This document shows, one piece after another, positions 27,468-62,354 of a stretch of 64,000 nt of DNA (positions are counted from its first letter, which is position 1; each line of letters begins with the position of its first letter). The notes under the pieces are model-generated. The model ran no database searches, was not told the origin of the DNA, and saw only the letters and a list, made by a program, of their open reading frames with translations. A program made the position numbers and the translations under genes. Source of the DNA: Galbibacter kalidii (GTDB lineage: Bacteria > Bacteroidota > Bacteroidia > Flavobacteriales > Flavobacteriaceae); contig NZ_JAPFGA010000002.1 in NCBI RefSeq assembly GCF_026241135.1, forward strand, positions 124,001-188,000. The letters run 5' to 3'.

Positions 27468-27576
27468 AATCTTTTAAATTAATAGCTGTAAACCAAAGGG
27501 GAAATCCCAACAGGAAGTGAAATACAAAAAACTACATTTTGAAAAGTAATTTTGTTGTATAAAAAGTGACTGACTT

Positions 27577-27650
27577 TTCCCTTCGCAGGTATTAACCTGA
27601 TCAGGTTCAAAGGGTTTATCTCAGCTGAAATGAATCAGCACCCCCAAAGT
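27577..27650 (-). promoter_or_regulatory. TPP riboswitch (THI element)
   Basis: On the minus strand the aptamer contains the conserved elements in order: GGGGGTGCTGA, CTGAGAT, a stem closing on ACCC, GAACCTGATC, GGTTAATACC and TGCG. These form the pyrimidine and pyrophosphate sensor helices of the TPP riboswitch. It lies in the leader of thiS, so the whole seven-gene operon should be repressed by thiamine pyrophosphate. A -7 box TATCTTTG lies just upstream at 27659-27666. Confidence 0.95.
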
Positions 27651-27814
27651 TTACTTTTCAAAGATAAATGAAAATCAGGTAGAAATAAAAATAATACCTT
27701 AAAAACTTTATTTCCAGACGTTTCCTCTAACAACAACATTTTTATCTGTTGGTTTTTGAAGAAATAAAAATGATAATCTTTTTATTGATTGGAATTATTC
27801 CATAATTTTGGAAT

Positions 27815-50105: not shown

Positions 50106-51311
50106 ATGAAGAAGATTCCCTACCGTCGTATTGGCACCACCTATTGGAAAGATATAGAAAAACCGCTTATATCGGGTGACTCCATCTCCATCATGGTACG
50201 GTGGAACAAAGAAACGATCATTGCAGACCACGGGAAGGCTTACCTGTCAAAAATTCCAAAGCTAGACGGGTTCTGCTGCATACCTGAGCATATCAAGTAT
50301 GAGCAAGTGGTAGGTAATTCCTATAACACCTATCATGAGCTGCCTATAAAACCCAAAAAGGGCAAGTGCCCCGTTTCTATGGGTTTTGTAAGGCATATTT
50401 TCGGGGAACAGGCAGAACTGGGCTTGGATTACTTGAAAATCATCTATGAACAACCCTCACAGATACTGCCCATTTTGTGTTTGGTCAGTAAAGAGCGTGG
50501 CACTGGAAAAAGTACATTCATCAAATGGCTCAAGGTCATCTTTGGGCAAAACATGACTTATATCAAAGGGGACGGTTTCTCTTCCCAGTTCAATGCCGAT
50601 TGGGTGTCGAAAGTCATTGTGGCAGTGGACGAGGTTTTCTTCGATAAAAAAGAAATCACCGAACGGCTTAAATATTTAAGTACCACCGACAAGGACAAAA
50701 TTGAGGCCAAGGGAAAAGACCGGGAAGAAGTCGAATTTTTCGGAAAATTCATTCTCTGTAGCAATAACGAGGACACTTTTATACTTATCGATTCCAACGA
50801 AATACGCTTTTGGGTCAGGAAGGTATTCCCTTTTGATACTGAAGACACTGAGTATTTGCACAAGCTTGTTTCTGAAATACCGGCTTTTATGCAATTTCTC
50901 ATAGACCGTCCATACGCTTCAGAAAGGAAAACACGGATGTGGTTTACCCCGGAACAGATCAAGACCAAGGCTCTTAAAAAATTGGTTTGGCTGAACAATA
51001 ATGTGGTCGAAAGGGAAATGGTACATCTGCTCTATGAGATGTTTGAGTCTACCGGTGCCGACGAGCTCAAGATTACCCCAAGGGAAATCGTATCAAACCT
51101 GAGCAAGGTGAGGCGTAAAAACTTCGAACCAAACGATATCAGGAGAATACTGAAAAACAAATGGGAACTCACCCCTTCCGACAATTCAAATTCCTATCAG
51201 GGATATGAGTTTACCAGTTATGGTGAGTTTGTCCAGATAAACCGTGTTGGAAGATATTTTACTGTTGAAAGAAGAAAGATTTACGGAATTTTTGATGAAA
51301 TGATGAATTAA
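50106..51311 (+). CDS. Primase-helicase family protein
   Basis: A 401-residue superfamily 3-like helicase (DUF5906 type). Walker A: KERGTGKSTFIKWLKVIFG; Walker B: KVIVAVDEVFFDK; a sensor region FGKFILCSNNEDTF follows. A C-terminal helical region may bind DNA. It probably unwinds the element's origin, with the iteron-like region directly downstream and the CHC2/Toprim primase as partners. No N-terminal primase domain is obvious. Confidence 0.88.
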   Translation: MKKIPYRRIGTTYWKDIEKPLISGDSISIMVRWNKETIIADHGKAYLSKIPKLDGFCCIPEHIKYEQVVGNSYNTYHELPIKPKKGKCPVSMGFVRHIFGEQAELGLDYLKIIYEQPSQILPILCLVSKERGTGKSTFIKWLKVIFGQNMTYIKGDGFSSQFNADWVSKVIVAVDEVFFDKKEITERLKYLSTTDKDKIEAKGKDREEVEFFGKFILCSNNEDTFILIDSNEIRFWVRKVFPFDTEDTEYLHKLVSEIPAFMQFLIDRPYASERKTRMWFTPEQIKTKALKKLVWLNNNVVEREMVHLLYEMFESTGADELKITPREIVSNLSKVRRKNFEPNDIRRILKNKWELTPSDNSNSYQGYEFTSYGEFVQINRVGRYFTVERRKIYGIFDEMMN

Positions 51312-51524: not shown

Positions 51525-52385
51525 ATGAAAAACAAGAAACTCACATGCGAAAGAGCCCGAAATTTTTCCTGCCTAAAGGCGCTCCAAAACCTCGGGCACT
51601 TTCCCATTAAAAAATCGGAGAAAGAAGCTTGGTTTCTGAGTCCCCTGCGGTCAGAAACCCAAGCCTCTTTCAAAGTCTCTTTGACCTTGAACCGTTGGTA
51701 CGACCATGGTGCCGGTATCGGTGGTAATGTAATCGATCTGGTCTGCCTTATCAAACAATGCTCGGTTAAAGAGGCCTTGTATATCCTGGACAATGAAAAC
51801 ATTCCTTTTTCTTTTCAAGGGCAAATAACTAATCCAGATAAAAACCGTATTGAAATCCTTTCCACCGGGAACATACAACACCCTGCCCTGTTCGACTATT
51901 TGAAATCCAGAAGGATCAAGCCCCGAACAGCAAACCGTTATTGCCGGGAAGTACACTACTCACATAAAGGAAAAAAATATTTTGCCGTTGGCCTAGAAAA
52001 CAAGTCCGGGGGATATGAGCTGAGGAACAAGTTTTATAAAAATTGTTCATCCCCTAAGGACATAAGCTTGGTCAAGCATGCCCGAACAAGCCTCGTCATT
52101 TGTGAAGGCTTGTTCGACATGCTTTCCCTGTTAAGCTATGCCCCTTCTGTTGCGGAAAAAAATGATGTGTTGGTGCTCAACTCCGTTGCCTTTGTAAAGA
52201 AAATCAAAGAGTATTTAGTGAATTACAATTGTATCTACCTCTATTTGGACAGGGACAGTGCAGGCAGCAAGGCTACCGAATATTTACTTAAGCAAAGTCC
52301 AAAGTGCGTGGATATGTCCCCGTTGTACAATGGGTTTACCGATCTGAACGACTGGTGGGTCTTTCAAAAGCAGCTATCCGGCTGA
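51525..52385 (+). CDS. DNA primase with CHC2 zinc finger and Toprim domain
   Basis: A 286-residue primase. The N-terminal region has LKALQNLGHFPIKKSEKEAWF and WYDHGAGIGGNVIDLVCL, the CHC2-like fold (zinc ligands partly degenerate). The Toprim domain has SLVICEGLFDMLSLL (Glu) and YLYLDRDSAGSKAT (Asp-x-Asp). It would prime element replication together with the primase-helicase. Confidence 0.9.
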   Translation: MKNKKLTCERARNFSCLKALQNLGHFPIKKSEKEAWFLSPLRSETQASFKVSLTLNRWYDHGAGIGGNVIDLVCLIKQCSVKEALYILDNENIPFSFQGQITNPDKNRIEILSTGNIQHPALFDYLKSRRIKPRTANRYCREVHYSHKGKKYFAVGLENKSGGYELRNKFYKNCSSPKDISLVKHARTSLVICEGLFDMLSLLSYAPSVAEKNDVLVLNSVAFVKKIKEYLVNYNCIYLYLDRDSAGSKATEYLLKQSPKCVDMSPLYNGFTDLNDWWVFQKQLSG

Positions 52386-52521: not shown

Positions 52522-52839
52522 ATGCCTAAACCGAAAGTCAAAATAAAATCCACCTATATCAAGTTCCGGTGCTCCCGGTTTGAAAAACGGCTGTTGCAGG
52601 TCAAGGCCAAAAGGGCGAATATGAGCCTGAGCTCCTATTGCCGGATGGCGGCCATGGATGATAAGATCGTGGAACGGTTTACGGATGAACAAATAGAAAT
52701 CTATAAGACACTGGTACAGTACCACCACAATTTCAAACGGATCGGGAACATGTTCAAGAAACGGAACCCCAAACTCCAACAGGTGGTGTACCGGTTAGCG
52801 GAAGACATCAAAGCACATTTAAAAAGTTTTAAAAAATGA
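52522..52839 (+). CDS. MobC-like relaxosome accessory protein
   Basis: A 105-residue basic protein with a ribbon-helix-helix start (STYIKFRCSRFEKRLLQVKAKRANMSLSSYCRMAAM) typical of MobC/plasmid mobilization accessory proteins. It should bind oriT and help the relaxase. It overlaps the relaxase gene by 4 bases (ATGA). Confidence 0.88.
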   Translation: MPKPKVKIKSTYIKFRCSRFEKRLLQVKAKRANMSLSSYCRMAAMDDKIVERFTDEQIEIYKTLVQYHHNFKRIGNMFKKRNPKLQQVVYRLAEDIKAHLKSFKK

Positions 52840-53708
52840 TCGGTAAAGGAAGTTCCATAGCACATACAAGGGCATCCATGCAATATGGATGGAACCAGGA
52901 AAAGGACGCCGAAGTGGTCTACAGGCAACATCTCTGCGGGGAAAACCCAAAAGAGATCACCAAAGAGTTCCAAACGGTGCAACAGACCAATGCCCGGTGC
53001 CGAAAGAACACTTTAAGCTTTGTACTGAGCCCGACCATTGAGGACGGGCAAAGATTAAAGCAAAAACAGCTTTCCGAACTCACCCGGAAATTTACCGAAC
53101 AAATGAATTTAAAAGAACACCAGGCCATTGCTTTTGTGCATAGGGACAAAAAACACCTCCACGTCCATTTATATGTCAACCGGATTGGATTTGACGGTAA
53201 GGCCTATAACGATAGTTACATTGGAAAGAAAAGCCAATTGGCAGCGGAAAAGGTGGCGCAGCAAATGCAATTGACAACCGCGAGGCAGGTCCAACAGGAA
53301 AAACAACAATCCTTGCTGTATATCCGGGGGATCATCAAACGGAACCATGAAAGGGCTTTGCAACACCGGCCTAAGTCCGTCGACCATTATATAAAACTGA
53401 TGCAGGAACAAGGTGTCAAGGTCATCCCTTCCATCAACAAATCCAATCAGTTGCAGGGGTTTCGGTTTGAATATGGGGGTCACAACCTAAAAGGCAGTGG
53501 GGTGCACAGGGATATGTCGGGCGGTAAGATACTGCTGGCCATTTCCCAAAACACCGAAAAAGGCCTAAAGGCATCAAAGGACAATACCCTTAAGATATTA
53601 AACCAAACGGTAACACTCAGTACCAACCTAGCAACATCCATCGCCAAAAAAGTGGCGAAGCAGGTCATAAAAAAAGCGATTGATACGGGAATTGGGATCG
53701 GCTATTAA
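52836..53708 (+). CDS. Relaxase / mobilization nuclease
   Basis: A 290-residue relaxase. The metal-binding three-His motif is visible in FVHRDKKHLHVHLYVNRI near residue 107-124, preceded by the oriT-nicking segment NARCRKNTLSFVLSPT. The C-terminal half is a basic helical tail. It would nick oriT and lead the DNA strand into a recipient through a helper element's conjugation apparatus. Confidence 0.9.
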   Translation: MIGKGSSIAHTRASMQYGWNQEKDAEVVYRQHLCGENPKEITKEFQTVQQTNARCRKNTLSFVLSPTIEDGQRLKQKQLSELTRKFTEQMNLKEHQAIAFVHRDKKHLHVHLYVNRIGFDGKAYNDSYIGKKSQLAAEKVAQQMQLTTARQVQQEKQQSLLYIRGIIKRNHERALQHRPKSVDHYIKLMQEQGVKVIPSINKSNQLQGFRFEYGGHNLKGSGVHRDMSGGKILLAISQNTEKGLKASKDNTLKILNQTVTLSTNLATSIAKKVAKQVIKKAIDTGIGIGY

Positions 53709-53719
53709 AATATGGTACC

Positions 53720-54166
53720 ATGGCAAAACTGGAAGAAATAGCGGCATTGCTTACGGAAGAGATAGCGAGTTTTAATGCATCAGTGCATAAATTGGAGCTC
53801 CTTTCAAATAAGCTTCATAAAGTAAAGGTAAAGGCGGACGCTTCCGAGATTCAGCGTCTTCTGGAAGCGTATCTAAAAAAACAGGGGCAGTTTGAACAAG
53901 ACCAAGCTAAAAACACACAAGAATTACTTGGGCATATTGACCGTTCCAAACTGTTCCCGAAATGGCTTGTTGTATGCAGTGTGATATTTGTGGCTCTTTT
54001 ATTGACATTGGGTTTTACCGCATTACATTTCCGGCATAGGAACCAGCAGTTAAAAAATGAAAACATGCTTATAAAAAAGCACTATCGAAATTTTATAAAG
54101 GGACAGCCCGAAATAGAAGCGCAATACCTGAAATGGACGGACAAAGATAAAGACCCAGCGCAGTAG
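53720..54166 (+). CDS. Mobilization-associated membrane protein
   Basis: A 148-residue protein 11 bases after the relaxase. N-terminal helices (about residues 1-70), one membrane segment (WLVVCSVIFVALLLTLGF near 92-110) and a short basic tail. Proteins of this layout follow relaxases in Bacteroidota mobilizable elements (possibly DUF6730). It may link the relaxosome to the membrane. Confidence 0.75.
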   Translation: MAKLEEIAALLTEEIASFNASVHKLELLSNKLHKVKVKADASEIQRLLEAYLKKQGQFEQDQAKNTQELLGHIDRSKLFPKWLVVCSVIFVALLLTLGFTALHFRHRNQQLKNENMLIKKHYRNFIKGQPEIEAQYLKWTDKDKDPAQ

Positions 54167-54220: not shown

Positions 54221-54307
54221 ATAATAAAAAGAGCCCATGCCGTTGTATATGCTTATTACATTTAGTGAGAGTCATTGACCCCGCCTTACGGGTGTACAAG
54301 CACCCTC
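54221..54307 (-). ncRNA. Candidate guide RNA 3 of the dCas12f-sigma system
   Basis: On the minus strand a scaffold occupies 54307-54241 and the predicted guide 54240-54221 (GCATGGGCTCTTTTTATTAT). The scaffold begins GAGGGTGCTTGTACACCC (hairpin GGGTG/CACCC) and ends GCATATACAACG, as in the other two units. Its middle is more diverged: GGCGGGGT for GGTGGGGT, and a different ACTC/GAGT arm. No conserved block follows the guide, so it is the last unit of the array. Guide limits are inferred from the point where the three units stop matching. Confidence 0.7.
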
Positions 54308-54350
54308 AATAATCACATTTATTTATAAATTATTCAATAACCTGAATTCT
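54308..54350 (-). repeat. Conserved block between guide-RNA units 2 and 3
   Basis: Minus strand, about 43 bases matching 54440-54485 at most positions: GAGAATTCAG, TTATTGAATA, TTTATAAATAAA and GAGGGTG in the same order. It includes the palindrome GAATTC. A TTG lies ~30 bases before each scaffold start, but no good TAnnTTTG follows, so it may be a promoter for a non-housekeeping sigma factor or a processing site. Confidence 0.55.
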
Positions 54351-54439
54351 CTGTTTTATATGTCTAAGTACGTTGTATATGCTACTCGCAATTAGTGAGT
54401 GTATTATGAACCTCACCTTACGGGTGTACAAGCACCCTC
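54351..54439 (-). ncRNA. Candidate guide RNA 2 of the dCas12f-sigma system
   Basis: Minus-strand scaffold 54439-54371 (69 bases) followed by predicted guide 54370-54351 (TACTTAGACATATAAAACAG). Nearly identical to unit 1 across the scaffold, including GGGTG/CACCC, an ACTC/GAGT arm and the GCATATACAACG end. It is preceded by the ~45-base conserved inter-unit block, which may hold its promoter or a processing signal. Confidence 0.75.
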
Positions 54440-54485
54440 GATAAACACCTTTATTTATAAAATATTCAATAACTGAATTCTCAGA
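54440..54485 (-). repeat. Conserved block between guide-RNA units 1 and 2
   Basis: Minus strand, partner of 54308-54350. Unit 1 has no such block upstream; there the dCas12f coding end takes its place. Together these show that the array grew by duplication of a ~130-140-base unit (scaffold starts differ by 142 and 130 bases). Confidence 0.55.
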
Positions 54486-54492
54486 TTTATGT

Positions 54493-54582
54493 TTCTTAAA
54501 GAGTATCGTGTACGTTGTATATGCTACTCGCAATTAATGAGTGTTATTATGAACCCCACCTTACGGGTGTACAAGCACCCTC
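54493..54582 (-). ncRNA. Candidate guide RNA 1 of the dCas12f-sigma system
   Basis: Minus-strand scaffold 54582-54513 (70 bases) followed by predicted guide 54512-54493 (TACACGATACTCTTTAAGAA). It begins 12 bases after the dCas12f stop, as reRNAs/omegaRNAs follow tnpB genes, and could be cut from the dCas12f mRNA. Scaffold-then-guide order (5' to 3') matches Cas12f and TnpB RNAs. A longer guide is possible, because the common downstream block begins only 30 bases after the scaffold. Confidence 0.78.
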
Positions 54583-54594
54583 TAAATAAAATAA

Positions 54595-55692
54595 TCATGC
54601 TATGATAAGTTCTATACCTGATTTATCAGCTTTGTATTTTATTTTGTTCATCAGCTGATAATAGCTCCAGTTCCTTAATACAAATTCTTCCTCCTTGGCA
54701 AGACCGATTTTGTCCTCTTGTTTTAATAAAATGAGCGTACCCGCCCGGTGTTTAATGCAGAAATCAATTAGTTTTCTGCTATATACATGAATACGATGGG
54801 ATACATAATTACTTTCTGTGTTGCGAAACTTGTCCACCGCTTTGAGTTTTCGTTTTCGCCCTTTGCCCGATTTGCAATAAGTAGCGCCTACCTGAGCCCT
54901 CTTCCGGGCGGCCTGTATCGCCAGCCTACGATATAGGAATTCTTCCTTGGTGCCGATGGTAAGCTTGGTTTTCCCGGTTTTTACAACTATAGGATATTCA
55001 AGAGAGAGTGAGGCCTCTGCTATAATCTCGGTTTTTAAATCATGCTTTTCTTTTTCAATTTCAAATGTAGCCATCCAAAAGATTTTTCCTTCTTTGAGTT
55101 TAATATGCGAAGAGCAAAGTTTAATATCCCCATCAACTAAACACTCCAAGAGTCTTCGTTTGTCAGTAAAATCTTTACCTAAATAAGTCTTAAATGGTAT
55201 GGAGAATAAACGAAAACAAAATGCCTTTTTTTCTTTTTTATATGATAATTTAATTATGTTCCTCGATCTAATTGGAAATGCTATATCCCTCCTAAAGTTT
55301 TTAAGGGAACGAAGGCCTTTCCAATAATCTGATTTATTTTTATTAAAAGAAGAGCGTAGAGTATTATTTAAGCTTGACAAAATATCAGTAGGTATCTGAC
55401 CCTTAAAACGCTTAGAAACCACAAGATAAGTAGTATTGATTTGGGAACCTTTCAAGATTCCCAGTTCATCTTTTTTTTCATCAGCCAGTTTGTGCTTAAT
55501 CCCTTCTGTGAGATAAAAGAAATCCTTGATCATTTCCTGTACATACAAATGGGATACAATAAGGTTGGCTGCTCTATAGCAACGGTTCTGCCATTGGTAG
55601 AGTTTATTCACCGCCTCTTTTCTTTCTTCTTTAGTAGGTAGGTCAACTGTTATCTGAATCTTCCGTGTAAGTTTAAGTGTTGAACTCTTCAT
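54595..55692 (-). CDS. Nuclease-dead Cas12f/TnpB-family protein (dCas12f)
   Basis: A 365-residue protein of the Cas12f/TnpB superfamily. Start at the ATG 55690-55692, 2 bases after the sigma-factor stop. The C-terminal half aligns by eye with Cas12f1: ASLSLEYPIVV for the RuvC-I strand, AGTLILLKQ for RuvC-II, NWSYYQLMNKIKYKADKSGIEL for the bridge after it. The RuvC-I Asp is Ser (residue 228) and the RuvC-II Glu is Leu (323). The protein stops where other family members continue into the zinc finger and RuvC-III Asp. It should bind guide RNA and target DNA without cutting. Alternative: a decayed TnpB; the intact frame, sigma linkage and guide array argue against that. Confidence 0.9.
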   Translation of the reverse strand: MKSSTLKLTRKIQITVDLPTKEERKEAVNKLYQWQNRCYRAANLIVSHLYVQEMIKDFFYLTEGIKHKLADEKKDELGILKGSQINTTYLVVSKRFKGQIPTDILSSLNNTLRSSFNKNKSDYWKGLRSLKNFRRDIAFPIRSRNIIKLSYKKEKKAFCFRLFSIPFKTYLGKDFTDKRRLLECLVDGDIKLCSSHIKLKEGKIFWMATFEIEKEKHDLKTEIIAEASLSLEYPIVVKTGKTKLTIGTKEEFLYRRLAIQAARKRAQVGATYCKSGKGRKRKLKAVDKFRNTESNYVSHRIHVYSRKLIDFCIKHRAGTLILLKQEDKIGLAKEEEFVLRNWSYYQLMNKIKYKADKSGIELIIA

Positions 55693-55694
55693 AA

Positions 55695-56483
55695 CTAAGC
55701 ATATCCTAATTTTTCCTCTTGTTGTTCCTTCCACAACTTATAGGCAGCTACAAATTCTTTATGAACCTCTTTTTGGGACAGGTTCAGTACCTCGCCAATT
55801 AAAGCAAAAGAATACTTTTTGTTAAACCGTAACTCTATCACCCTTTCCTGTTCGTCAGTCATCATTTCAGGGGACTTTACATCTCTACTTGAACACATGT
55901 GATCATGTTTAAGTTTGTTTCCATGATGTATAATAGTTTTAATATCCTGAATGGCCTTTTTTACATCTTGGCTTGTTTGGGAAATACTTATTCCCATCAC
56001 CTCTGCTATAGCCTTATACTGAAAACCATATTTTAAACAAAGCTCAATCAAATGTCTTCTTTCTGAACTCAATAAGGGTAATACTCTTTTTATTTGGTCA
56101 AATAGTTTTTGTTTCGACTGCTGATCCTTTAAATTCTCTTCATCATTTACAGGATCATAACCTACCATATAATCCTGGTAGTTTTCGTAATTCTCTAAAG
56201 AATTGACTTTCCTAAAGAACTTGTTTTTGGGTTTACTGAAGTAGAAAATACATTCCCTTTTCATCACAAATCTTAAGAAAAAGAAGATATGCTTTGGGGA
56301 TTCGATACTTTTTCTATGTATCCATAATTTTAAAAAAGTATCCTGGACCAAGGTTTCTATCACAAATTCATCATCAAGCCATCGTTTCCCCACCCAAAAG
56401 ATACTTTTACTGTATTGCGCATGGATTTGAACTAAAGCAGCGGGGTCACTGTTTTTTAATAATTTAAAATTACGGTGTGACAT
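55695..56483 (-). CDS. ECF-type sigma factor linked to dCas12f
   Basis: A 262-residue sigma-70-family factor. Region 2: [42 protein letters not shown]. Region 4: [44 protein letters not shown] further ~70 residues contain [30 protein letters not shown], a second HTH-like segment not present in ordinary ~190-residue ECF factors. Start at ATG 56481-56483. No anti-sigma gene is adjacent. In known dCas12f-sigmaE systems this protein is recruited by the RNA-guided complex and brings RNA polymerase to the target. Confidence 0.88.
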
Positions 56484-56500
56484 AACGAACTCATTTAAAG

Positions 56501-56518
56501 CGGTGGTAGCTTCCACCG
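56501..56518. promoter_or_regulatory. Hairpin in the leader of the sigma-dCas12f operon
   Basis: CGGTGG and CCACCG form a perfect 6-base inverted repeat around TAGCTT, 18 bases before the sigma-factor ATG. It may be a protein-binding site or a translational control hairpin. Confidence 0.45.
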
Positions 56519-56891
56519 GAATTAAATTTGATTAAATAGTTGAAGCGAGTTCTTATACTTTATAAAGAGAAGATAGCTTTGAAAATGGTTGAGAAGAATG
56601 CCCACTTATCCAAAAATAAAAAGGCGCAGAACTCAAATTACCGAACTGAGGTACTGGTATACCTTGGAAACGATAACAGAGCCCACGCCCGGGTCGTGAG
56701 CAAAGTTACTTATCATCTCGTTTCCATAAAAATTACCAGTTTTCAGTTCGAGATTCAAAGCAATTGCTTCTAATGTTTTTCTATAAGAAGAATCGCAAAA
56801 ATATGTAATCTAAAACAAATATAGGAAAATATTTAAAATGCGAGCCACAGACCGCGTTTATTTCACCTGCATCATATTTATTTGTTTATTG
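56519..56891. other. Divergent intergenic region, no gene recognised
   Basis: This 373-base interval between the sigma factor and the small HTH gene has one open frame (56540-56773, TTG start) that resembles nothing I know and is probably not translated. It should hold the promoters of both transcripts, but I see no perfect TAnnTTTG on the sigma side. Confidence 0.4.
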
Positions 56892-57134
56892 ATGGAATAT
56901 AACAAAGCAATATATAATCATATAGAGCATCTCTGGAAAGCATCTGAACTATCAAAAAGAAGGTTTTCCATAAACCATAATATAGAAGAAAGTACTTTAA
57001 GAGATATACTTAAGAAAAAGAATTATCAAATATCGTTACCTACTATTTATAAAATTTGCGAGTCCAGAAATATTACTCCCTCTGAATTTTTCATAGAGGT
57101 TGAAAAATTTTCAAAAATTAAAGCTCGAAAATAA
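56892..57134 (+). CDS. Small XRE-like HTH protein
   Basis: An 80-residue protein with a compact helix-turn-helix (ASELSKRRFSINHNIEESTLRDILKKKNYQISLPTIYKICESRNITPSEFF). Start at ATG 56892, the first Met consistent with the fold; a longer frame has a hydrophobic N-terminus of doubtful reality. It is divergent from the sigma-dCas12f operon and may regulate it or belong to the mobile element. Confidence 0.7.
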   Translation: MEYNKAIYNHIEHLWKASELSKRRFSINHNIEESTLRDILKKKNYQISLPTIYKICESRNITPSEFFIEVEKFSKIKARK

Positions 57135-57784: not shown

Positions 57785-59419
57785 TTAATTATCATCTGAT
57801 AAACTTTTAGCCATCAGCAGAGCATTATAAACATTCACTATTTTACCGGATTTGGAAAGCTGCTTAAAAGGAAGCAATCTTTTGGGATTGTCCTTACTAG
57901 GGACACTCACATCAATATTGTATTCTACCCCTGAATTCATAATAATTCTTTTGACTTGTGCGGCTGACAAATCTGGGTATTGCGAAAAAATTATACCAGC
58001 AATACCGGAAACAACTGCAGAAGATAAGGAAGTGCCGCTATCCTCTTTGTACTTGTTGTTTGGAATAGCAGCTTTTATAAGATGGCCAGGAGCAAAAACA
58101 TCGACATCATGTTGTCCATAATTAGAAAAATAAGCTAATAAATCAGGATCTATTGTATTTGTTGTTGCGCCAACCAATATATAGTTGTTAGACACCTCGG
58201 TTTCATCATTTAAATTATCATTAGGGTAATAATCCGTTATCTCACTCAAATTCAACCTGCTGTTGCCAGCGGAAGAAACTATCAATACATTGTTGTCTTC
58301 AGCATATTTTATTGCATCCAACACCCATTGCTTATGTAATGATAATTCCTTGCCAAAACTCATGTTAATGACTTTCGCTCCATTGTCAACAGCATATTTG
58401 ATTCCTAAAGCGATATCCTTATCATGTTCATTTCCGTTGGAAGAAATACTTACCGGCATAATAAGGCAATTTTCACACACACCTTTTAAGCTATCAGTCT
58501 GAGCAGCAATTATCGAAGCTACCTCTGTCCCGTGATACAATTCGCCAATATGACCATTCACAATAGGTGTACCATAAGAAATGTCATTTATATCATCTGG
58601 ATTGTCTCCTAAAATATCACGATCAAAATAATCTGGGTTTAACGATTTATTCAAATCACCTTCAACCGTTTTCCTCAAATCATCTATCCATTCTTTTGAG
58701 AGATCATACTTTATATAATCACTCATGTAATATATTAGTTTAGCAAGTTCCTCATCTTTTTCTTTATAAATATCATATAAGCTGTCTAATTGGTCGGTTG
58801 TATAATCTTCCTTCGGAAAAAATTTAAGCAAAGCTTTTTTACTTTTTGGATATGTATCGGTAAGGAAATTAACATAATCCATATCTGACTGAGCTGACTC
58901 CTTCGCTTCTTCATATTTCTTTAAAGCCTTTTTGTATAGTTCCTTATTTACAAGTCCATTAAGGGAATCCTTTTTGTAAGCCCTGATAATCCGTAAAGAT
59001 TCATTATTGGGATATATGATATTTTCTCCCTTGGCATTTCCGATGAAATTCCATCCATTTATATCGTCTATATAACCATTCGCATCATCATCTTTACCAT
59101 TGCCGGGGATTTCCTTCTTATTTTGCCATATGTTTCTTTTTAGGCTCTCATGATTGATGTCTATCTCCGTATCTATAACAGCTATAATAATTGGGTTCTT
59201 TGGGGGCGTTATCAATTCATCATTAATGGCTCTATCTAGACTTATACCAGGAACAGAATCAAGTTTAATATCTTCAAGAATCCAATTATTTAGATTATTA
59301 TCATCAGGTTTAGTATTAGAAAAATAAGTAAACTCAACTGATTGAAGTTGTTTTTTATCGCTACATGAAAAAAACCAAATTGTATTTAATAATAGTAAAG
59401 AAATATATAGACGGTTCAT
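57785..59419 (-). CDS. Subtilisin-like serine protease, lipoprotein
   Basis: A 544-residue S8 protease with a lipobox (LNTIWFFSC) at the N-terminus. Catalytic triad: Asp in IIIAVIDTEIDINHESL, His in LYHGTEVASIIAAQ, Ser in DSGTSLSSAVVSGIAG. About 170 residues of charged helical sequence separate the Asp and His blocks, longer than in standard subtilisins. It follows the precursor gene of a RiPP locus and is the obvious candidate to remove the leader at Gly-Gly or to process the exported product. Confidence 0.9.
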   Translation of the reverse strand: MNRLYISLLLLNTIWFFSCSDKKQLQSVEFTYFSNTKPDDNNLNNWILEDIKLDSVPGISLDRAINDELITPPKNPIIIAVIDTEIDINHESLKRNIWQNKKEIPGNGKDDDANGYIDDINGWNFIGNAKGENIIYPNNESLRIIRAYKKDSLNGLVNKELYKKALKKYEEAKESAQSDMDYVNFLTDTYPKSKKALLKFFPKEDYTTDQLDSLYDIYKEKDEELAKLIYYMSDYIKYDLSKEWIDDLRKTVEGDLNKSLNPDYFDRDILGDNPDDINDISYGTPIVNGHIGELYHGTEVASIIAAQTDSLKGVCENCLIMPVSISSNGNEHDKDIALGIKYAVDNGAKVINMSFGKELSLHKQWVLDAIKYAEDNNVLIVSSAGNSRLNLSEITDYYPNDNLNDETEVSNNYILVGATTNTIDPDLLAYFSNYGQHDVDVFAPGHLIKAAIPNNKYKEDSGTSLSSAVVSGIAGIIFSQYPDLSAAQVKRIIMNSGVEYNIDVSVPSKDNPKRLLPFKQLSKSGKIVNVYNALLMAKSLSDDN

Positions 59420-59520
59420 TAAAACTTTTTTGTATAAAGTGAAAAAGGGAAGGACAAAGGATTAGCACCTTTGTAATCCCCTCAATTAAAATTACTCAAG
59501 TATATCGTGTATTATGTTTA

Positions 59521-59682
59521 TTATACCTCTGTGGGCCTTGAAGTGATTGTTTTTGTTTTACCTATTACGGTTTCTCCTTGATCGTCTCCATCAAATGAAA
59601 GATTACCACCATTTATATGTTGTGGATTATCTAATTTAGAAATTTGAAATTTCTCCAGTTTAAGTTTTGATTGCTTCTTCAT
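59521..59682 (-). CDS. RiPP precursor peptide (class I lanthipeptide-like)
   Basis: A 53-residue peptide found by translating the gap. The leader MKKQSKLKLEKFQISKLDN ends in HINGG, the Bacteroidota leader style with a double-glycine cleavage site. The 27-residue core begins NLSFDGDDQG and ends TSRPTEV. It has five Thr and two Ser that LanB could dehydrate but no Cys, so classical lanthionine rings cannot form. It lies between the regulator and the protease on the same strand. Confidence 0.82.
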   Translation of the reverse strand: MKKQSKLKLEKFQISKLDNPQHINGGNLSFDGDDQGETVIGKTKTITSRPTEV

Positions 59683-59763
59683 AAAGTTTAGTTTTTTTAA
59701 TTAAATACTCGGTTAAATGTAAAAGATTTTAAAATAATATCAGAGAGGAACTTTTATTTAATG

Positions 59764-59785
59764 GTCGTCATTTATAAATCACGAC
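59764..59785. promoter_or_regulatory. Palindrome upstream of the precursor gene
   Basis: GTCGT-C-ATTTATAAAT-C-ACGAC is a 22-base palindrome with one mismatched pair. It overlaps the stop of the TPR-AraC gene and lies ~80 bases upstream of the precursor ATG. It could be an operator for the AraC-type regulator or an RNA hairpin separating precursor expression from the synthetase genes. Confidence 0.5.
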
Positions 59786-61494
59786 TTAATTTTATCTTTT
59801 TCTAGTTGCTTAATAAAATAGGAAGGATATATCCCGTGAGTATCATAAAACCTCTTAGAGTACGTTTCTGCACTCCTAAAGCCACATTCCTTTGCAATGG
59901 CTTTAATAGTATATTTCCTAAAATTACTTTCATGGTTTAATTTAGAAACAGAATATGAAATTCTCAGGTCGTTGATATAATCCGTGAAACTATGCCCTTT
60001 AATATGATTGATTACTTTTGATAGATAAGTTGAATTTGAATTCAATTCCCGGGCTAAACTGTTCAATGTTATTCGAGGGTCTGTAAATTTATTTTCAGCT
60101 TCAAAATCATTTAATTTATTTATTATAGAGTCTACAATATTTTTTGGCAACCCATGTCCGTCATCTATTTTATTTTTTTTGCTCGATCCAAATGTTTTTT
60201 TACTCTGTTCAGCTATTCCGTTTTTTTCCAAAAGTAATTGGTATCTTGACTTATATGTTTTCATTTTTCTTATTTCTCTGAATAATATTATAACAATTAG
60301 AGCTATTAAAAAAACAAGAAAGTATGTAGTTTTTGAATATCCGTCATACAAACTTTGTAAATCATTAATCAACTGATTTTTTTCCTGAATAATCTTTGGC
60401 GTATCATAATCTTTATCAATCCTTCTGCTCAAATATTGATAATTACTTGAAATTATACTATCAGCCTTTAGTAATTGATTAAGGTATCTTAATTGCGATG
60501 TCTTATCATCCTTTTTTTGATAATACAAGATTAAAGCCTCATAAGTATTCCTTAAATCAGGGTGTAAATCACCAATTTCAGAAAAAATAGAATCTATTTT
60601 TAAAAAGTAATTAATCCCTATACTCTCATCGGTTAATCTTATATGTGACATCCCTAAATAATAATACGCTTCGGAAAGATTAGGAATATCATTTTTATTT
60701 TTTAAAAACTCTAATGTTTTATGCAAACTATCAATAGAGGCTTCATAGTTTTTTTGCTTGTAAGCTGCAAGTCCCTCATTGAAAATAAAATATTGCCTGT
60801 AATTATTGTTCCCGAGCATTTTAGTTTCAATTAAACCTTTCTTATTAAAGATTCGAGAGGAATCTAACTTTCCGGTTCTTAAGTATCCATCAGACAATGC
60901 AAACAGCCCCATTAAATAGTATTCTGAATTATATGAGTCGGACTTTTTATCAGAGTAAAACTTGTATACATTTTTAAATATGGCCAAAGCCTCATCATAA
61001 TGTCCTAATCTACTTTTAAGCAATCCTATTCTGTAATTAATAGAAACTTCCTTAGATCTATAGTTTTGTTCATCCTTGATTATACTATTTTTAGCGTTAA
61101 GATAGTTGTCAATTGACTTTTTGAAATCTCTTATAGCAAAGGACTCATCAGCCTTTATAAGATATCCAAGAAAAGGGTAAAACGAGTTGTGTATATGCTT
61201 TTCTTTAGAGAAAGTTATTATGCTATCAGCATATTTTAACTTGAGTTTTGATTCACTTACTTCTGCTATAAAATAATAGCCATTGAGTACTTTAGCAGGA
61301 TCTTCATTTGATTCAGCTCTTTTTAAATAGGCATTGGCATATTTGATTGCAATAGTAGGATTGCTTTCAGTCGAATAGAATAGATCAACTAGCGCATCTT
61401 CACTGATTTGATCTAAAGAATCAATCTTTTTTTGAGCATGACTCTTTATGATTGTAAAAAATAATAACGTTGATATGTAAATGATTATTCGCAT
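59779..61494 (-). CDS. Membrane TPR-AraC regulator
   Basis: A 571-residue regulator found in Bacteroidota. Signal peptide (LLFFTIIKSHAQ), periplasmic TPR repeats from ~30 to 370, one membrane helix (YFLVFLIALIVIILF near 393-407), and a cytosolic C-terminal AraC-type HTH (LNSLARELNSNSTYLSKVINHIKG; TIKAIAKECGFRSAETYSKRFYDTHGIYPSYF). It can sense a periplasmic signal and act directly on DNA. It overlaps the SpaB_C gene by 10 bases, so it belongs to the RiPP operon. Confidence 0.9.
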   Translation of the reverse strand: MRIIIYISTLLFFTIIKSHAQKKIDSLDQISEDALVDLFYSTESNPTIAIKYANAYLKRAESNEDPAKVLNGYYFIAEVSESKLKLKYADSIITFSKEKHIHNSFYPFLGYLIKADESFAIRDFKKSIDNYLNAKNSIIKDEQNYRSKEVSINYRIGLLKSRLGHYDEALAIFKNVYKFYSDKKSDSYNSEYYLMGLFALSDGYLRTGKLDSSRIFNKKGLIETKMLGNNNYRQYFIFNEGLAAYKQKNYEASIDSLHKTLEFLKNKNDIPNLSEAYYYLGMSHIRLTDESIGINYFLKIDSIFSEIGDLHPDLRNTYEALILYYQKKDDKTSQLRYLNQLLKADSIISSNYQYLSRRIDKDYDTPKIIQEKNQLINDLQSLYDGYSKTTYFLVFLIALIVIILFREIRKMKTYKSRYQLLLEKNGIAEQSKKTFGSSKKNKIDDGHGLPKNIVDSIINKLNDFEAENKFTDPRITLNSLARELNSNSTYLSKVINHIKGHSFTDYINDLRISYSVSKLNHESNFRKYTIKAIAKECGFRSAETYSKRFYDTHGIYPSYFIKQLEKDKIKS

Positions 61495-62354
61495 AATAAG
61501 GCCTTTTGACTATTTAAATACTTGGATAAAAAAAAGTAGCATATAAATTCATGTAATCTTTGATTTTTCCGAAACGCCCTGTTAACACTCATATGAACTA
61601 TACTAGCAGTATATATGTGGTCTTTTTCTTTTTTATGTTTATATATATCATCAATACATGGTTTTATGCTTATTGAACGGTTCTGAATAAGTTCCTCCAT
61701 TCGATAAAACTCTTGATTTTGAGGTATTTCACCCATGATTTGATTCAATATAGCACGATGTTCTCTATAAGATCGACTTAATTGCTTAATAGCATCTTTA
61801 TTGGCATTAAACTCTTGCTTAAAATTATGTAATCCTTGATCTACAAATTTTATTTTATCATTAATATCAAATTTAAAAGACTCGAGTATAGAGTTAATAC
61901 TTTTTATAATAAACAGGGTGAAAAGTTCTTGATTTTTAAATATATGAAGAGCTCTTATCATCATTAAGCTATCGTGAAAAAATAAAGATTCTGTTTGAGT
62001 AATTACTTTTCCCCCATAACGTTCAAGCTCTCTTACATAGGTATCCATTGCTATGTTATAAATCAACTTTTTTTCCATGCAGGCTTTAAAATAGTTTTGT
62101 GTGATCTGCATGGTTTTTGAAATAGCATGGAAGTTTCTTGCTTTTAGCCGGATACGAAGGTGATGTTCAGGGTCATTATACCTGATGAAAAACCATTTTT
62201 TAATTAAATTTTCCTTAATTAACTGTTCGGTCATTTGTGAAATATATTCCTCCAAAACAATATCAGCCATTCGGTTTCCTGTATATAACTTGTAGTAAAG
62301 CCATTCTTCTCCTGGCAAATAGTAACGCTTATTTATTTTTAAAGAAGAATTCAT
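61485..62354 (-). CDS. SpaB_C-type lanthipeptide elimination-domain protein
   Basis: A 289-residue protein of the thiopeptide/lantibiotic family: EEWLYYKLYTGNRMADIVLEEYI, WFFIRYNDPEHHLRIRL, YVRELERYGGKVI. This is the C-terminal (glutamate-elimination) half of split LanB enzymes, which turns glutamylated Ser/Thr into dehydro residues. Its start overlaps the stop of the dehydratase gene by 4 bases (ATGA). Confidence 0.9.
   Translation of the reverse strand: MNSSLKINKRYYLPGEEWLYYKLYTGNRMADIVLEEYISQMTEQLIKENLIKKWFFIRYNDPEHHLRIRLKARNFHAISKTMQITQNYFKACMEKKLIYNIAMDTYVRELERYGGKVITQTESLFFHDSLMMIRALHIFKNQELFTLFIIKSINSILESFKFDINDKIKFVDQGLHNFKQEFNANKDAIKQLSRSYREHRAILNQIMGEIPQNQEFYRMEELIQNRSISIKPCIDDIYKHKKEKDHIYTASIVHMSVNRAFRKNQRLHEFICYFFLSKYLNSQKALLCE

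Follow-up and report, generated by a model that had tools for sequence, protein, structure and literature searches.

Which genes does an RNA-guided sigma factor serve in the genome that carries it? The question is raised by a locus at 54222-56516 on the minus strand of a 64,000-nucleotide stretch of Galbibacter kalidii DNA (contig NZ_JAPFGA010000002.1; the whole stretch is called the window here). In this locus a gene for an extracytoplasmic function (ECF) sigma factor, a gene for a nuclease-dead Cas12f (dCas12f) and three scaffold-plus-guide units follow one another in that order. Judged by its sequence, the locus almost certainly belongs to the known dCas12f-sigmaE family of RNA-guided transcription systems and is not a new kind. 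Systems of this kind are known from structures, and as to what they control in nature, the window offers an answer that can be tested across genera. Most relatives examined share one guide class with a match in one structured element, which lies before SusCD nutrient-uptake operons and often before the regulator itself. What appears new here is the class of guide 3, its near-match before the sigma open reading frame (ORF) of its own locus, and the matching elements before two SusCD operons of the host. With a probability of about 0.55, we favour the reading that the complex starts transcription inside the leader formed by this element, past the 5' arm of a terminator, and would thereby switch on SusCD operons and itself.

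The locus and its known relatives

The sigma-factor gene (55695-56516) encodes a sigmaE- or RpoE-like protein, which matches the RpoE chain C of PDB entry 9n9q (E 4.6e-102) and the Pfam domain Sigma70_r4 (2.9e-11). Its ORF opens at a GTG, and an internal ATG at 56483 gives a protein of 262 aa against 261 aa for the PDB homologue; this ATG is likely the true start. The sigma protein also carries two separate region-4-like matches (residues 140-186 and 219-252), one above the expectation for an ECF sigma factor. Two bases past the sigma stop stands the ATG of the dCas12f gene (54595-55692, 365 aa). Its product matches PDB chains named 'Nuclease-deactivated Cas12f' (9n9c_A, E 4.7e-187), with about 76% identity to the dCas12f of the solved complexes (9n9c/9n9m), and it is also matched by the Cas12f model of PADLOC (E 1.5e-53). 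Foldseek, given an AlphaFold model of the protein (mean pLDDT 72.4, moderate confidence), placed the dCas12f-guide RNA (gRNA)-DNA complex 9n9m_A first (E 1.4e-46, TM 0.81). Homologues of both proteins are present in one PDB entry, 9n9q. The sequence of 9n9c is that of an Allomuricauda (Flagellimonas) taeanensis JCM 17757 protein (locus L013), identical at 363/363 compared positions.

The loss of nuclease activity was read off a sequence alignment and not a structure superposition. Aligned with the Cas12f effector of 9nzo, the window protein has aSLS opposite vDLG, which is taken to be the RuvC-I motif. The alignment stops 92 residues short of the end of the 9nzo chain, and dCas12f lacks the final part of RuvC. 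By this comparison, the window protein is a Cas12f relative without the RuvC catalytic residues. It is thus like the CRISPR-Cas12f nucleases (Al3Cas12f, 9nzo/9nzr; AsCas12f, 8j12) in fold and unlike them in its replaced RuvC-I residue and missing C-terminal part. Membership in a CRISPR-Cas12f immune system was rejected, with RuvC lost and no adaptation genes (neither Cas1 nor Cas2) among the 13 window proteins scanned with Pfam.

The first scaffold starts 12 bases past the dCas12f stop, at 54582. The three scaffolds (54514-54582, 54372-54439 and 54242-54307) are 66-69 nt long, and all end in GCATATACAAC before giving way to three different sequences: guide 1 (GTACACGATACTCTTTAAGA, 54494-54513), guide 2 (GTACTTAGACATATAAAACA, 54352-54371) and guide 3 (G followed by GCATGGGCTCTTTTTATTA, 54222-54241). 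For comparison, a set of 82 loci was assembled from the best 80 of 109 found in one scan, the window and the second copy in the host genome. All 82 carry a sigma gene no more than 0.5 kb upstream of dCas12f. A profile of the scaffold, derived from the units of 14 of these loci with the window among them, matched 12-36 bases past the dCas12f match in 81/82; in the sole miss, L040, the sequence ends 17 bases past that match. Fourteen scaffolds, three of them from the window, share three stems, with two-sided changes in only 3/17 pairs. Other multi-unit arrays are found in L050 and L057 (four units each) and L074 (three units); the guides of L050 and L057 are variants of one theme, perhaps tracking variant elements.

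These results confirm what an initial annotation of the window had observed and support part of its interpretation. The coordinates confirm the order and spacing of the ECF sigma gene, the dCas12f gene and the three units on one strand, and the alignment agrees that catalytic residues are missing (DLG to SLS, with the C-terminal RuvC part absent). The PDB chain matches and the recurrent scaffold support the identification as dCas12f-sigmaE with guide RNAs, and the structure prediction that it had called for recovered the Cas12f fold. The closest characterised relative is the A. taeanensis system (PDB 9n9c, 9n9m, 9n9o, 9n9q), which has an orthologous dCas12f (76% identity) and sigma factor, the same gene order and the same scaffold; it differs in having one unit, by the profile, where the window has three.

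Guide 3 and a structured leader element

Guide 3, here G followed by GCATGGGCTC, is a member of the class GCGTGGGCTC. A guide start of this class, with up to 2 mismatches, occurs in 61/82 loci, and a looser search added L065, L078 and L079 (64/82). For 194 shuffled 10-mers (6 of 200 were dropped as too similar), the average was 1.1 loci and the maximum 45. Loci without a class guide include those of Echinicola, Empedobacter, the taeanensis group and Zunongwangia, and one Sinomicrobium locus. The host genome holds a second dCas12f-sigmaE copy (L006 8450-10827, contig C20, 77% identity), in which about 460 bp separate the sigma and dCas12f genes. Of the two gRNA units in this copy, the second has a guide (GCGTGGGTTCTC) of the same class as guide 3.

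The predicted target of guide 3 (GCGTGGGCTCTGTTATCG, 56671-56688, minus strand) lies close to the sigma ORF of its own locus: CCCGG followed by GCGTGGGCTCTGTTATCG stands 173 bp upstream of the ORF start. Guide 3 matches it at 10/12 and 12/18 positions, and the 5'-G that had been predicted to precede a target, as target-adjacent motif (TAM), is present at 56689. The site falls within a 155-nt structured, leader-like element (56618-56772, minus strand) that scores 177 bits with covariance model R1. This model was built from alignment A1, which comprises 31 related copies including that of the window; the structure was drawn from the window copy, and helix P3 of structure A was excluded from the model after the aligner shifted it. 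Because the copies were chosen by motif, fixed bases in the motif carry little weight. A nested hairpin is paired in 92.4% of cells, with 59 two-sided changes against 19.2 in shuffles, and slid versions of the hairpin reached at most 42.1%. A second, incompatible pairing joins the target segment to a downstream arm before a T-run (helices 3 and 4 paired at 99.1% and 100%), and helix 1 of structure B is paired in 30-31 of the 31 copies. In this terminator-like hairpin, the segment that the guide matches forms the 5' arm, and the complementary 3' arm (GAGTTCTGCGCC plus T-run, 56618-56634, minus strand; a conserved pairing) begins 53-57 nt past the first target base in 31/31 copies.

In the comparison set, 48/82 loci have the full-length element no more than 260 bp from the sigma match; L059 has part of it, and in L039 and L081 it lies further from sigma. 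A G precedes the target in 49/51 model-found elements; L073 has A, and L059 is cut there. From these matches, we consider it quite probable that the guide-3 class targets this element class. The alternatives of a mobile-element end or a known RNA were rejected: Rfam gave no match for the window element at gathering scores, nor for the element in six loci (E up to 1), and the element mostly lies between a divergent small gene and a gene on the sense strand. In the window, the divergent gene encodes a small Cro/C1-type helix-turn-helix (HTH) protein (56838-57134, plus strand; PF13443, E 2.1e-6). In L121 and L122, both from one genome, a gene of 331 aa, presumably for an IS110-type transposase, adjoins the element as though inserted twice into the apical palindrome.

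At least four copies of the element are present in the host genome (150 of 1190 candidates were scored). Two belong to the dCas12f loci, and two more, on contig C13, precede SusC-SusD pairs, next to which comes a met-zincin or S9 peptidase gene. Among 77 distinct copies in loci L087-L235, 35 precede SusC, 18 precede sigmaE-dCas12f and 2 precede another sigma factor. For the other 22 no gene was recognised in the flank, which is short in many; in longer flanks some have other or more distant genes, so SusC is a frequent neighbour of the element, though not a constant one. Of the 69 copies with enough flank, 62 have a divergent ORF (at least 75 aa) upstream, a count made without a chance-ORF control; many of these look HTH-like by eye, and 2 of the 3 run through Pfam passed the cut-off. 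Since the target is a multi-copy element, one class guide can address several places.

The distribution of the element was examined in 299 genomes of the family, with the dCas12f and element scans taken as the same draw and with stricter filters for the element. A dCas12f match is patchy, occurring in 13/299 (in G049 as a fragment only, in G294 with stops), and the two other genomes of the genus that were listed had none. The element occurs in 56/299 genomes, namely 13/13 with a dCas12f match against 43/286 without (Fisher 1e-10); with copies beside dCas12f removed by hand, it is still found in 10/13 (p 2.7e-6).

The guide of the taeanensis type served as an independent check and was searched in four genomes with up to 2 mismatches. 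Of its 18 hits, 4 fall on its own gRNAs and another 6 about 259-289 bp past an element; SusC was recognised downstream of 4 of these 6, and the contigs of the other 2 end 448 bp on. Two hits lack a locus, and in G327 none of the located hits is near an element. In its own genome, the taeanensis guide matches a site within an element-SusC cassette, about 260 bp past the element, whereas the site of guide 3 lies inside the leader element. In genome G003, where the two guide kinds occur together, each kind matches cassettes C33 and C68, so that two guide sequences converge on one cassette class. A further lead comes from L179, L180 and L182, where a Leeuwenhoekiella guide (GCGTGAGCTTGC) also has 10-nt matches in a hairpin arm, 46-49 nt upstream of three SusC start codons.

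A possible mechanism and its rivals

How might such a complex act on a leader? In a preprint of 2025, dCas12f-sigmaE reportedly activates transcription beside R-loops at a 5'-G, with no promoter motifs. A literature search, with bioRxiv outside its reach, returned nothing on dCas12f-sigmaE. Following the solved relatives, dCas12f would load the gRNA and form an R-loop on DNA beside the 5'-G; sigmaE would then bring RNA polymerase, with a start downstream of the R-loop, as is said of the family. The spacing of the arms (53-57 nt) would place this start between them, and a transcript without the 5' arm would escape termination. This terminator bypass is a tentative proposal; if true, it would be a new way to overrule attenuation. 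In the window, the element copy before the sigma gene would give self-activation through guide 3, for which we put the odds a little short of even. The same guide class would also address the leaders of the second dCas12f-sigmaE copy and of the two host SusC-SusD operons with their peptidase genes. Extended to all HTH-leader-SusCD cassettes, the picture would be one of a shared guide class that switches on each of them together with its own operon, an attenuation bypass with positive feedback spread in part by mobile DNA. We regard this broader scheme as possible and somewhat doubtful.

Several observations weigh against the favoured reading. At position 3, the guide has A where all four host elements found have G, and the second guide of the C20 copy fits the host SusC elements better. 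Exact matches of the G plus 10 nt of guide 3 occur at two places on contig C1 with no element around; they were rejected as targets and ascribed to chance, about 2 being expected for an 11-mer by estimate, though a reversed control gave 0. In 24/82 loci there is a guide but no element at the self position, where some of the contigs are cut, and in 13/82 an element without a matching guide, although L066, L085 and L086 gain one in another search. The G that precedes the target is paired in structure B, which may be why it is conserved. For the taeanensis-type guide, the 1.5-kb flanks of a further 6 located hits contain no element, and a reversed control pattern gave 9 hits.

In the host genome, which is 99.97% complete, guides 1 and 2 have no other match, whether searched as 20-mers allowing 3 mismatches or as 14-mers allowing 1. 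A search at 12 nt in the window and three host loci gave no credible target. Both of their best matches in the gaps upstream of two host SusC genes fall into one 1-kb gap and stand behind a G; they were reached by 233 and 429 of 2000 shuffles and are not significant. Host targets for these two guides were rejected on this basis. The initial annotation had expected several targets from three guides, which is borne out in part: guide 3 has credible targets, and for guides 1 and 2 no credible host target was found.

If the guide were tuned to the element at its own locus, the two should vary together. A comparison of 35 guide/own-element pairs, which considered the self element only and used no tree, does not bear this out: 14 pairs are in agreement over the first 10 nt, and the fit of a guide to its own element is no better than in shuffled pairs (447 against 452.5 matches over 18 nt; within the first 10, 317 against 316.4). 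Single loci seem to co-vary, namely L078 (18/18), L017, L023 and Leeuwenhoekiella with GCGTGACAT and GCGTGAGCTT (two genomes), and the opposite is seen in L014, L054, L058, L060, L062, L071, L077 and L083. Guide-target covariation was therefore dropped as evidence. By these comparisons, the guide fits the element class and not specially its own copy. This negative result lowered our odds for self-activation from just above even to just below, and likewise those for the broader scheme of a shared guide class.

The 43/286 genomes with the element and no dCas12f match also count against a simple partnership, and a dependence of every element on dCas12f was rejected on these grounds. The element must also serve something else and was not made for dCas12f; the guide appears to use an element that exists independently. 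This raises the question of the role of the element itself and of how an RNA-guided sigma factor took it over.

Other explanations of the locus were weighed with the same evidence. The guide could act on RNA, with the 3' end of the gRNA mimicking the leader segment GGCGUGGGCUC and pairing with the nascent 3' arm GAGUUCCACGCC, so as to block the terminator or do the reverse, and with dCas12f as RNA carrier. The guide class does equal the 5' arm of the terminator, and the arm pairing is kept in 99-100% of cells. We nonetheless hold this to be improbable: the solved dCas12f complexes include a gRNA-DNA R-loop, the second guide type matches sites past the leader and outside both arms, and the linkage to sigma (82/82) would be left without a role. 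A repressor of the TldR kind is more improbable still. TldR proteins are stand-alone nuclease-dead TnpB proteins with an RNA and no sigma partner, and the dCas12f-sigmaE family is held to activate. The window dCas12f is likewise a nuclease-dead TnpB/Cas12f relative, and the use of such a relative for gene control, by repression, is described for TldR (PMC13418256), in passages that name no sigma partner. On this explanation the sigma gene would be a bystander, which is hard to square with its adjoining dCas12f in 82/82 loci, with the homologues of both proteins in 9n9q, and with element copies that lie upstream of genes; membership in the TldR repressors was rejected.

More room is left for a window copy that is decaying or retargeted, in which guides 1 and 2 would be directed at the DNA of another host, guide 3 would have drifted, and the C20 copy would do the work. 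Several findings give scope for it: at position 3, guide 3 differs from each of the four host elements found; guides 1 and 2 have no host target; the C20 guide fits better; and some loci have the guide without a self element or the element without a matching guide. The adjoining mobilisation genes and the patchy presence in 13/299 genomes also speak for it. We judge it unlikely all the same, as the sigma and dCas12f genes are both open, the three scaffolds keep the conserved stems, and a GCATGGG guide is also found in another genome, L011.

Surroundings of the locus

Next to the locus lie genes for a DUF5906 protein (50106-51311), a Toprim primase (51525-52385), a NikA-like protein (52522-52839), a relaxase (52836-53708) and a DUF6730 protein (53720-54166), all assigned with Pfam. 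These neighbours point to a mobilisable element. The suggestion that the system is carried by mobile DNA is thus backed by the mobilisation genes; the ends of such an element did not turn up, a search of the window for a tRNA 3' end repeat finding none. Short palindromic repeats of intergenic gaps (GTCCGGTGGAC and ATCCAGTGGAT) are alike in L167, in the gap before SusC, and in L002 at 1140-1260, and perhaps represent a small dispersed repeat. Downstream of the locus, the region 57785-62354 of the window holds genes for a subtilase, an AraC/TPR regulator and a lantibiotic dehydratase C-terminal protein, a possible peptide natural product cluster. Elsewhere in the window, a thiamine pyrophosphate (TPP) riboswitch (Rfam RF00059) is found at 27561-27655 on the minus strand.

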